A DNA stretch of 64,000 nucleotides from Halpernia humi (lineage in GTDB: Bacteria; Bacteroidota; Bacteroidia; Flavobacteriales; Weeksellaceae), in NCBI RefSeq assembly GCF_900108025.1, contig NZ_FNUS01000001.1:186001-250000 (forward strand). Reading direction: 5' to 3'. Each line of letters begins with the position of its first letter. The stretch's first letter is position 1. A program made the translations under genes and the position numbers. Below, one piece after another: positions 55,354-57,615 of this stretch. Below the pieces are notes generated by a model. That model searched no databases. It was not told the origin of the DNA and was given only the letters and a program-made list of their open reading frames with translations.

Positions 55354-56430
55354 TTAATTTTTTAAATAATCTTCCGCTGAAGATTTCGCGGTAATTTTTC
55401 CGTTTTGTAAAGTTAAGATAAATGGATTACTTCTGGCAATTGTTTTAATGGCAGTTCCATCCATCAATCCGTTTTTGATGTTTTTAAAAGTATTTGGTGA
55501 AGTAGAAACGCCCAAAATAAATGCATTTTTATTGCTTTTCATTTTTGCTATTGCTGCTTCTAAATATTTGGTTTTCATTTCAGCAGGTTTGTAAGAAAAA
55601 ATGAGAATGGCTTTTGGTGCATTTAAAATTTCATCTGTTACATTATTTCCAATTTCGTCTTCTATTTTAAATTTTGAAATTTCTGAAACGTAACCTTGTT
55701 TTACGATTTCAGATTTTGTTTTATCCGATTCAATTTCCAAATCTGGGTTTTGCCAATAATTTTTTGAAATATAATCGTCTTGATTGACTTTTAATTCTTC
55801 ACCTGTTTTTTTATTTTTTAAAGTGTAAAAAGTTTTAAATTCTGAAGGATCTGCGGCAATTTTTGCTTGTTCTACTTTTAAATCTGTACCAATTTTATAA
55901 TCGCGGAAATCGATTAATGGTTCATGTTTTATGCCATAGAAAATAAAAAAAGCAAAAAGTAAAAAAAGAAGACTGAAAATTGACCATTTTAAAGTTTCAA
56001 AAGATGACTTCTCATCATTTTTTCTAAACAAAAAATAGAGAACAAATAACGCAATTAGTAAAACAATATCTTTCCCGAAACTTTGCCAAGGTGTAAATTT
56101 TATCGCATCGCCAAAGCAACCACAATCTGTAACGACTTTAAAATAAGCAGAATAGAAAGTTAAAAAAGCGAAGAAAATGCAAAGCAAAATCAACAAATTA
56201 AGTGTCCATTTTAATTTAATTTTTAAGACCAACATCAAACCTAAAATTAGTTCTAAAAGCACCATAAAAATGGAAAGTGGCAAAGCCAATTTTTCTAAAA
56301 AAGGCATATTAAAAACATCTGCGGCGAAATATTCTTCCATTTTAAAGGAAAAACCAACAACATCAACCGCTTTTACAAAACCTGATGCAATAAAGACTAA
56401 ACCGACAAAAATTCGTAAAATATTTTTCAT
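55354..56430 (-). CDS. DoxX-family/BT_3928-like membrane protein with thioredoxin-like tail
   Basis: 358 aa from ATG 56430; an upstream frame to 56478 passes through heptamer repeat sequence and is discounted. Four membrane helices form a DoxX unit (about 1-150: ILRIFVGLVFIASGFVKAVDVVGFSFKMEEYF), with a CGCFGD motif in the third loop; a fifth helix follows near 155-175, then a periplasmic region of about 180 residues with a thioredoxin-like outline (SYKPAEMKTKYLEAAIAKMKSNKNAFILGVS) without the cysteine pair. Function is unknown; DoxX relatives act on quinones or thiol redox. Confidence 0.82.
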   Translation of the reverse strand: MKNILRIFVGLVFIASGFVKAVDVVGFSFKMEEYFAADVFNMPFLEKLALPLSIFMVLLELILGLMLVLKIKLKWTLNLLILLCIFFAFLTFYSAYFKVVTDCGCFGDAIKFTPWQSFGKDIVLLIALFVLYFLFRKNDEKSSFETLKWSIFSLLFLLFAFFIFYGIKHEPLIDFRDYKIGTDLKVEQAKIAADPSEFKTFYTLKNKKTGEELKVNQDDYISKNYWQNPDLEIESDKTKSEIVKQGYVSEISKFKIEDEIGNNVTDEILNAPKAILIFSYKPAEMKTKYLEAAIAKMKSNKNAFILGVSTSPNTFKNIKNGLMDGTAIKTIARSNPFILTLQNGKITAKSSAEDYLKN

Positions 56431-56439
56431 TTTATTATA

Positions 56440-56464
56440 GATGGAAGTTGAAAGATGGAAGTTT
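56440..56464 (+). repeat. left arm of inverted heptamer repeats around the four-helix-bundle gene
   Basis: On the + strand this region reads GATGGAAGTTGAAAGATGG and onward to 56464, built from GATGGAA/GTTGAAA-type heptamers. Positions 56440-56463 match the reverse complement of 56903-56926 at 23 of 24 bases. It sits 18 bp past the four-helix-bundle stop. Confidence 0.7.
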
Positions 56465-56481
56465 AGAAAATTGCCCATATT

Positions 56482-56838
56482 TTAGTCTTTTAATTGATTT
56501 CTAAAACCGATTATTTGATTCATTAAGTGAAAGGATTCATTATACAATTCATTAAATTTTTCGTCTGAAATATAATTTCTATTTTTTGCTTTATACATAC
56601 AAGTTACAACTTCAGCAAGAGAACGAATAGAATAACCTAAAAATTTTTTAAACTCCAATTTTGATTGTAAAATAGAGCCTTCTGAAATATTTAGTGCAAT
56701 AGAATCTACCGCTCTTCTGATTTGAGAAACCAAATTAAACATTTCATCTTTTGGAAAATTTTTAGAAATTTCAAATATTTTTTCTCCAAAATCCATTGAT
56801 TTTTGCCAAATAATCAGTTTTTCAAATTTAAAACTCAT
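56482..56838 (-). CDS. four-helix-bundle protein (23S rRNA intervening-sequence/S23 family)
   Basis: 118 aa forming four amphipathic helices: the family start LIIWQKSMDFGEKIFEISKNFP, then MFNLVSQIRRAVDSIALNISEGS, then the EFKKFLGYSIRSLAEVVTCM helix, and a last helix. The family was first seen in proteins encoded by intervening sequences of 23S rRNA genes, and it also includes the Avd accessory proteins of diversity-generating retroelements; its molecular role is unknown. Unusually, the gene is bracketed by GATGGAA/GTTGGAA heptamer repeats in inverted orientation (56440-56464 and 56874-56971). No reverse transcriptase is nearby. Confidence 0.88.
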   Translation of the reverse strand: MSFKFEKLIIWQKSMDFGEKIFEISKNFPKDEMFNLVSQIRRAVDSIALNISEGSILQSKLEFKKFLGYSIRSLAEVVTCMYKAKNRNYISDEKFNELYNESFHLMNQIIGFRNQLKD

Positions 56839-56873
56839 TCAATATTATATGAAAATTAATTTATTTTTTTTTA

Positions 56874-56971
56874 AATCTTCCAACTTCCAACTTCCAACTT
56901 CCAACTTCCATCTTCCAACTTCCATCTTCCATCTTCAATCTTCAATCTTCCATCTTCCATCTTCCATCTTC
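56874..56971. repeat. heptamer array, 14 units
   Basis: Fourteen consecutive 7-bp units of the form CAACTTC, CATCTTC or AATCTTC (minus strand GAAGTTG/GAAGATG), in perfect phase over 98 bp, with a partial unit after. Part (56942 onward) forms the end of the DUF1599 reading frame. Units differ in a patterned way, suggesting expansion by slippage. Part of it pairs with the left arm at 56440-56463. Confidence 0.85.
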
Positions 56972-57502
56972 CATCAATTTTATTAAACAAAAAACGGCAT
57001 AATTTAAAATATCAAAATAATTAGCATCTAAACCTTCAGAAACAAGCGTTTTACCGTTATTGTCTTCAATTTGTTTTGTTCTTAAAACTTTTTGATAAAT
57101 TAAATCTGTAATTGAAGAAATCCGCATTTCTCGCCATGCTTCGCCGTAATCGTGGTTTTTTTTCTGCATGAGTTCTGTGGCTTCTTTCGCGTAGAAATCA
57201 TATAATTTTAAAATTTCTGTAGGATTTTCATCCAAAACTTCGCTAAAACCTTTTTCCAATTGAATTAAACCAATTATCGAATAATTCACAATAGCAATAA
57301 ATTCGCTTTCTTCACTTTCTTCAATCATTTGCACTTCGCTCATCTGCAAAGTTCTGATTCTGTTTACTTTAATGTAAATTTGATCGGTGATTGAACTTGG
57401 TCGCAAAACGCGCCACGCTGCGCCGTAATCGGAAAGTTTTTTTTCAAACAATGCTTTGCATTGCAGCAATATCTCCGAAAATTGAAATTTTGTATTGTGC
57501 AT
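56942..57502 (-). CDS. DUF1599-family protein
   Basis: 186 aa from ATG 57502 (MHNTKFQFSEILLQCK). The frame is open to 57577 but that start is upstream of a consensus -7 element at 57520-57527, so the shorter start is preferred. Two copies of the DUF1599 unit are visible: KLSDYGAAWRVLRPSSITDQIYIKVNRIRTLQ and KNHDYGEAWREMRISSITDLIYQKVLRTKQIE. The family is unknown but may bind nucleotides (all-alpha NTP-pyrophosphatase-like). The last dozen residues (MEDGRWKMED) are translated from the heptamer array and so are probably acquired. Confidence 0.85.
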   Translation of the reverse strand: MHNTKFQFSEILLQCKALFEKKLSDYGAAWRVLRPSSITDQIYIKVNRIRTLQMSEVQMIEESEESEFIAIVNYSIIGLIQLEKGFSEVLDENPTEILKLYDFYAKEATELMQKKNHDYGEAWREMRISSITDLIYQKVLRTKQIEDNNGKTLVSEGLDANYFDILNYAVFCLIKLMEDGRWKMED

Positions 57503-57519
57503 ATTAAATCTTAACGCCT

Positions 57520-57527
57520 CAAATATA
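57520..57527 (-). promoter_or_regulatory. -7 element of the DUF1599 gene
   Basis: CAAATATA on the + strand is TATATTTG on the minus strand, 17 nt before ATG 57502. It lies inside the longer possible frame, which supports the shorter start. No upstream TTG at proper spacing. Confidence 0.45.
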
Positions 57528-57615
57528 GTGAAAATTGGGATTTGATTATGAATTGAAACGGTCTTAATTGATTTCAAAAAGTATTAATTTTAAGTTAAAA
57601 TACTTACTATGGAAT

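Follow-up and report, generated by a model that had tools for sequence, protein, structure and literature searches.

Convergent heptamer arrays around four-helix-bundle (S23p/IVP) genes recur in many bacteria and may mark a small mobile DNA element

In Halpernia humi a gene of the 23S_rRNA_IVP (S23p) family is enclosed by two arrays of 7-nt repeats that point towards each other, and judged from the genome sequences compared here this is one case of a general arrangement recurring in many bacteria. The heptamer sequence varies from copy to copy, yet the copies follow one rule, RGWNNNN, and one polarity, towards the gene. We consider it probable, though far from assured, that the feature is a copy of a small (about 0.5 kb) mobile element acting at the DNA level, the ends of which would be recognised by its ring-shaped protein. 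This layout may account for scattered heptamer repeats of unexplained spread, and it joins two puzzles treated apart in the literature we found, namely these repeats and the S23p/IVP proteins. The stretch of DNA analysed, called the window below, is 64,000 nt long and carries the following features.

55354..56430, minus strand: MauE-domain / BT_3928-family host gene that follows the element
56439..56466, plus strand, convergent with the upstream arm: downstream arm of four RGWNNNN units (AGATGGA AGTTGAA AGATGGA AGTTTAG)
56440..56975: entire element, 536 nt from one outer edge to the other as used for the empty-site comparison
56482..56838, minus strand: 23S_rRNA_IVP / S23p (four-helix-bundle) gene, 118 aa (PF05635, E 9e-33; predicted structure)
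56872..56969, minus strand (the sense strand of the gene): upstream arm of 14 consecutive RGWNNNN units (AGATGGA/AGTTGGA/AGATTGA)
56942..57502, minus strand: DUF1599 host gene before the element, start placed at an inner ATG

The right-hand array (56875-56975; period 7, 14.4 copies, 93% matches) is the sole period-7 row among the 18 tandem-repeat rows of the 64-kb window, and the unit of the upstream arm closest to the gene reads AGATTTA. With up to one mismatch, CTTCCAWCTTCCAW has 14 matches in the window, all of them inside the two arrays, where shuffled sequences lead one to expect 0.17. The best inverted pair, 56439-56463 with 56903-56927, covers 25 nt at 96% complementarity. An earlier note on this DNA had described inverted heptamers on both sides of the gene and a 24-bp inverted match with 23 identical positions; both descriptions are borne out. 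The heptamer array now supplies the last codons of the DUF1599 gene (MEDGRWKMED), and the start of the BT_3928-family gene, MKNILRIFVG, was set by comparison with relatives. The element has terminal inverted repeats that could pair into a stem, as in a 23S intervening sequence, but it is located between two protein genes and not in a 23S rRNA gene. Its single gene encodes a helical bundle and no recombinase was found within it, nor did Rfam give a match across 56000-57600.

The window protein scores 113.1 bits against PF05635 (curated cut-off 33.8) and 106.8 against TIGR02436 (cut-off 24). Its AF2 model, with a pLDDT of 96.5, is a four-helix bundle, and the best PDB matches of the model are 2gsc (Z 20.9) and 2rld (Z 17.7), both of which are entries with five chains. 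A Xanthomonas protein of the S23p family forms a toroidal homopentamer, and as of 2016 S23p/IVP proteins had no known function (PMC4990558). Carried over from 2gsc, 2rld and the Xanthomonas protein, a ring of five subunits may be assumed for the window protein as well. The family is under purifying selection, with a median dN/dS of 0.088 and a maximum of 0.20 among the 64 of 95 orthologous-site pairs that were computable.

Next after 2gsc and 2rld come 8ub7 and 4dwl at Z about 15, which are Avd proteins from diversity-generating retroelements. The window protein shares the four-helix-bundle fold with them at 6% identity; unrelated helix bundles score Z 12.1 or less. This common fold would suit a retroelement that depends on a reverse transcriptase (RT), with the protein acting like the Avd partner. 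Against it, the window's genome has nine IVP matches and no match to PF00078, a PF00078 match is present in only 9 of the 20 genomes with at least 10 IVP matches, and the two families are distributed independently over 148 genomes (both in 46, IVP only in 70, RT only in 12, neither in 20; Fisher p 1.0). A reverse transcriptase supplied in trans is rejected for this lack of association, and we regard the retroelement reading as extremely improbable.

The arrangement is not confined to the window. PF05635 matches were found in 40 of 59 related genomes and in 116 of 148 genomes sampled from the phylum, but in none of 14 control genomes. Of 576 relatives in a scan of named genomes 80 were kept, some of them from Acidobacteriota, Planctomycetota, Nitrospirae, Chloroflexi and Proteobacteria. 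After removal of 39 of 253 matches (25 lay close to the end of a contig or locus, 10 were partial and 4 belonged to the same element), 214 elements from 223 loci were left, and the upstream flank of each was scored against its downstream flank as an inverted repeat. A score of 26 or more was reached by 165 of the 214 elements with their own partner flanks, by 2.5% of swapped partners and by none of the 214 outer-flank controls. At the looser threshold of 22, 7.9% of swaps also pass, as do 7 of 214 outer flanks. Removing 66 further elements gave a non-redundant set of 148 elements with 296 arms, 12 of which elements lack an arm by either of the two criteria. Period 7 dominates: lag-7 runs are present in 57% of arms and 1.9% of outer flanks, compared with 19% and 0.7% for period 8, and some elements are indeed built of 8-nt units. 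Two loci outside the 214-element set, L204 and L205, have arms as well (scores 33 and 45).

Three of the nine PF05635 matches in the window's genome contain an inner stop. By eye, all nine are flanked by inverted short repeats, each copy having a unit of its own (AGATGGA, AGTTGTC, AGAGCCA, AGATTTG and others); by alignment seven are clear (scores 32-50) and two, L034 and L036, are weak (18-22). One of these elements (L033, G000:C11:48291-48599) splits what we take, from flank translations read by eye, to be the methionine synthase gene metH between its N-terminal and pterin-binding parts. Downstream of another, L031, heptamers (G000:C3:272529-272549) encode the first residues of what looks like MurB, and the same apparent gene contains a second run of AGTTGTC type.

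The family is also present on plasmids (43 records), and inverted arrays were found at 10 of the 12 plasmid loci examined (7 of 8 in a first batch, 3 of 4 in a second), although L494 and L287, both among the 12, are near copies of each other. The two loci without inverted arms are from Pseudanabaena (L289, with direct arrays) and Nostoc (L497, no arrays). Nostoc plasmid IVP genes are framed by arrays of the cyanobacterial heptamer-repeat type, and since Nostoc-type heptamers recur, some swapped plasmid pairs (L288, L290) score as high as the true pairs.

A heptamer matrix trained on the upstream arms of 137 elements alone reads [A/G]G[T/A]NN[not G]N. Its median score is 5.9 on upstream arms and 6.2 on the reverse complement of downstream arms, against 1.2 and 1.4 on the wrong strand and -0.3 to -1.0 in far flanks. 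The earlier expectation that GATGGAA-type heptamers would flank other copies of the gene stands as far as most copies have arms, and fails for the sequence itself: GATGGAA as a universal unit is ruled out, other copies carrying other heptamers. Among pairs without shared flanks, heptamer similarity follows protein similarity weakly (Mantel rho 0.107, a value reached in 0 of 300 permutations).

The arrays have a preferred length. When RGW units following one another at a period of 7 or 8 were counted in the 296 non-redundant arms, 127 had one or two recognisable units, which is the level of far flanks, 29 had three, 38 four, 75 five, 10 six, 9 seven and 8 more than seven. Exactly five units are thus found in 75 of the 169 arms having three or more, and five on both sides is the commonest combination (24 of 148 elements). 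With the control motifs WGR, RTW, WAR and YTW the peak at five is absent. The gene-proximal unit of five-unit arms is distinct in carrying A as its third base in 73% (left) and 71% (right) of 45 elements, against 35-46% in units 1-4. The window copy, with 14 and 4 units, departs from five and five. The five-unit arrays match the five-chain toroid of the family, suggesting one heptamer per subunit, and the reading as a mobile element with a ring protein makes a sharp prediction here, five heptamers for a five-subunit ring.

Comparison with relatives shows that the window copy is an insertion, as far as sequence comparison can tell. The DUF1599 gene was found in 57 of 59 genomes, and 30 of its loci were compared, 29 of them from other genomes. 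The same next gene follows within 300 nt of the DUF1599 stop in 26 of these 29, the IVP gene is absent from the junction in all 29, and the longest RGW chain there is two or less. The outcome that the earlier note had named as refuting its proposal, an arrangement kept by every relative with no empty sites, is therefore not the one seen. The sister genome G001 has 50 nt where the window element has 536. A short CCCTAAT heptamer run without an IVP gene is present at the DUF1599/BT_3928 junction of one genome, G031 (L075). The closest relatives of the window element among those collected, L216 (75% identity) and L224 (71% identity), come from two other genera and share no flanking ORFs with the window. 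L216 keeps the window's heptamers and its PF05635 match has an inner stop, while L224 carries AGTCCGA/AGACCGA on both arms, a remnant of GATGGAA surviving on its outer left edge.

Two plasmid sites gave further empty counterparts. L291, located between a TraM-like and a hypothetical gene on pC052_D of Nostoc sp. C052, is missing from C057 p057_A, where the flanks are identical at 139/144 and 146/150 bases and 42 nt of target stand in place of 480 nt. At this TraM site pNsp_c of ATCC 53789 shows, by eye, heptamer arms but no annotated IVP gene. L287 on plasmid1 of Calothrix NIES-22 was compared with Tolypothrix PCC 7601 and Nostoc carneum, whose flanks are 84-90% identical to its own and which have 11 nt where the element has 515. 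Target duplication was not found at either plasmid site, the 42 and 11 nt being replaced; AATAAAAT is present on both outer edges of the window element, which could be a duplication or a coincidence in AT-rich sequence. Movement appears to be slow, since 117 of 135 between-genome protein pairs with at least 65% identity share both flanks.

Arrays without a gene are also found. In the window's genome, exact AGATGGA-type 14-mers occur at one other place, inside murG, and allowing one mismatch adds scattered single matches. The murG copy (G000:C5:163191-164354, L334) is a palindrome of four and three units read in frame. The gene was found in 30 other genomes, of which 29 were taken as loci and 27 aligned. 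At the same point the sister G001 (L335) has an AGTTGTC palindrome of five plus five units, and murG of G008 and G010 has an apparent single arm. This MurG loop is a hot spot of insertion: the palindromes of the two sister species differ in their heptamer, and in two other genera (G012, L338; G004, L339) the loop holds an unrelated, PLSPEGGKNGKN-like in-frame insert.

AGTTGTC-type 14-mers are frequent in these two sister genomes, the window's and G001, with 36 and 72 matches against 0 and 2 for a reversed control. We inspected 20 stretches of the two genomes, 19 around AGTTGTC-type places and one at the murG of the window's genome, chosen partly for close matches on both strands though not for their order. 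Opposite arrays within 200 nt of each other form 11 pairs, every one of them convergent, and 17 of the 34 arrays have exactly five units. Several arrays fall within long open frames. When aligned over 74 columns, palindromes in two G001 genes (L482, L483) are identical at 63. Two pairs (L476, L479) are chimeric in that one side carries another heptamer than the other. Nine of the stretches contain only unpaired arrays and one has no array by the criteria used. Dispersed copies with the same ends but without the gene, as in MITEs and REPINs, are present within single genomes. In-frame palindromes inserted into essential genes could have their origin in mobile elements with such copies.

Random stretches away from IVP genes were drawn from 24 genomes with at least 8 IVP matches (1.15 Mb) and 20 genomes without a match (0.77 Mb). 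Lag-7 arrays are present in 9 of the 24 and in none of the 20 (p 0.002, from unequal amounts of sequence and with genome kinship ignored), 18 arrays against 0, four of the 18 being from a single genome, G108. Periods 5, 6 and 8-10 show no such preference for the gene-rich group. This comparison rests on lag-7 arrays because RGW chains are no commoner than reversed-motif chains: RGW does no better than its reverse as a marker of stand-alone arrays in gene-rich genomes (18 vs 19), 10 of the 18 RGW chains coming from one stretch (L330), and gives 2 vs 1 in genomes without the gene. Neighbouring RGW chains within 200 nt form five same-direction pairs and one convergent pair, the latter of five plus five units (L384). 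The single arrays and same-direction pairs slightly lower the odds that we give to a mobile element. L330 itself, on contig 1 of G108, is a 20-kb stretch with many clustered heptamer arrays of mixed types, mostly in one direction.

Ordinary microsatellites could also produce such arrays, slippage making them anywhere and IVP genes landing in them by chance or preference. The variable number of units per array (14 and 4 in the window), the run without a gene at the L075 junction and the heptamer repeats known from Xanthomonas, Nostoc and Beggiatoaceae (PMC4692102, PMC4679880) are in line with this explanation. It fits poorly with the peak at five units, the fixed polarity and the nearly empty outer-flank controls, with the 29 sister junctions lacking longer RGW chains, and with the complete lack of lag-7 arrays in 0.77 Mb of the 20 genomes without IVP genes. 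We hold it to be very unlikely.

The earlier note had suggested a mobile or RNA-processed unit. Arms at other copies, empty sites and relatives at unrelated sites favour the mobile half of this suggestion. In the other half, the arms would pair in the transcript and RNase III would cut the stem, so that the element is tolerated since it is removed from the mRNA. The window transcript is predicted to fold into a strong hairpin (z -4.6), and arm identity in register exceeds that out of register at three of four variable positions. A precedent exists in the 23S intervening sequence of Coxiella, which is 428 nt long, has tandem GACAGAT heptamers before an S23p ORF and a 28-bp terminal stem, and is excised by RNase III (PMC4990558). 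However, in 110 non-redundant elements the stem mismatches on the sense strand comprise as many G.U as A.C combinations (102 each, beside 314 transversions), and in a first test of 90 elements the bias was opposite to that expected for RNA (G.U 87 vs A.C 116, p 0.049). Furthermore, 7 of the 55 elements with at least four RGW units in both arms pair poorly, one of them having 8-nt units on the left and 7-nt units on the right, and the gene-less copies L476 and L479 have unlike heptamers on their two sides. An RNA stem as the conserved feature is rejected on these results, and we judge RNA processing of the element to be unlikely. Since G.U equals A.C and some well-armed elements pair poorly, the arrays look more like two separate recognition sites, their units copied from a common source, than like a stem.

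A regulatory role has also been considered, in which the heptamer arrays and the protein would affect expression of the adjoining genes. A median of 24 nt separates upstream arms from the start codon, purifying selection acts on the protein, orthologous sites are often kept, many arrays are single, and regulation by heptamers has been proposed (PMC4679880). This is countered by the convergent layout around both the gene and gene-less gaps, by palindromes inside murG and other open frames, and by the relatives at other sites and the empty sites, which leaves regulation quite unlikely.

Under the reading as a mobile element, the pentameric toroid would bind one array with one subunit per heptamer, and two rings would hold the element's two ends. 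Gene-less array pairs would be moved in trans. Insertion may proceed via host replication or repair, for example by annealing or template switching, because no recombinase is encoded, reverse transcriptase is not associated, and a short target is replaced rather than clearly duplicated. Copying of one array from the other arm, or from another element of the genome, would change the heptamers on both arms together.

The elements resemble REPINs and MITEs, in which a gene-bearing copy (with a RAYT or IS transposase) accompanies dispersed gene-less palindromes, some of them in coding sequence. They differ in having no transposase, no clear target-site duplication and ends made of arrays instead of a fixed sequence. 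With the 23S rRNA intervening sequences of Coxiella, Leptospira, Xanthomonas and Brucella they share the protein family and the inverted repeat ends, and the Coxiella heptamer, read as AGATGAC, fits RGWNNNN. Unlike these, they are located between protein genes, have arrays on both sides, occur several times per genome and have gene-less copies, and whereas excision from RNA is a trait of the 23S sequences, the present elements are known from DNA.

Intergenic arrays of 7-nt units, some in convergent inverted pairs, are likewise known from cyanobacteria, Xanthomonas and Beggiatoaceae. Published examples are GGGAATC in Xanthomonas, with 70 and 75 paired convergent sites, GGGGA(C/T)T in Nostoc (PMC4692102), and TAACTGA in Beggiatoaceae, cyanobacteria and five Bacteroidetes, for the spread of which MacGregor saw no evident mechanism, naming S1, Csp and CsrA as candidate binders (PMC4679880). 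The terms 'S23', 'helix bundle' and 'four helix' do not occur in the main texts of PMC4692102 and PMC4679880, and our search of the literature, which covered few subscription journals, brought up no paper connecting IVP genes outside rRNA with heptamer arrays. The cyanobacterial heptamer repeats are termed STRRs, and the tandem intergenic 7-nt units that define them are also seen in our lag-7 arrays and Nostoc plasmid loci.

It is conceivable, although we lean against it, that all of these belong to one previously undescribed class of mobile DNA. Its ends of five RGWNNNN units would be read by two toroidal pentamers; it would have no recombinase of its own and borrow host replication or repair; its heptamer dialects would be exchanged on both arms; STRRs, GGGAATC and TAACTGA repeats would be gene-less copies, and the 23S intervening sequences copies in rRNA genes. 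Such elements could be one reason why intergenic repeats are patchily distributed in Bacteroidota and cyanobacteria.

In Flavobacterium columnare, a four helix bundle protein encoded between two host genes, those of guanylate kinase and a nucleotide adenylyltransferase, is included in a table of 'phage elements' (PMC5524665), and may be such an element; the word 'heptamer' is absent from the available text of that paper. On two cyanobacterial plasmids, pANA02 of Anabaena sp. 90 (L288) and pPg_01 of Pseudanabaena galeata (L289), IVP genes are located between cas6 and cas4 of CRISPR loci, and in L289 long direct arrays of AAAAGCT/AAAAGCC take the place of the inverted ones.
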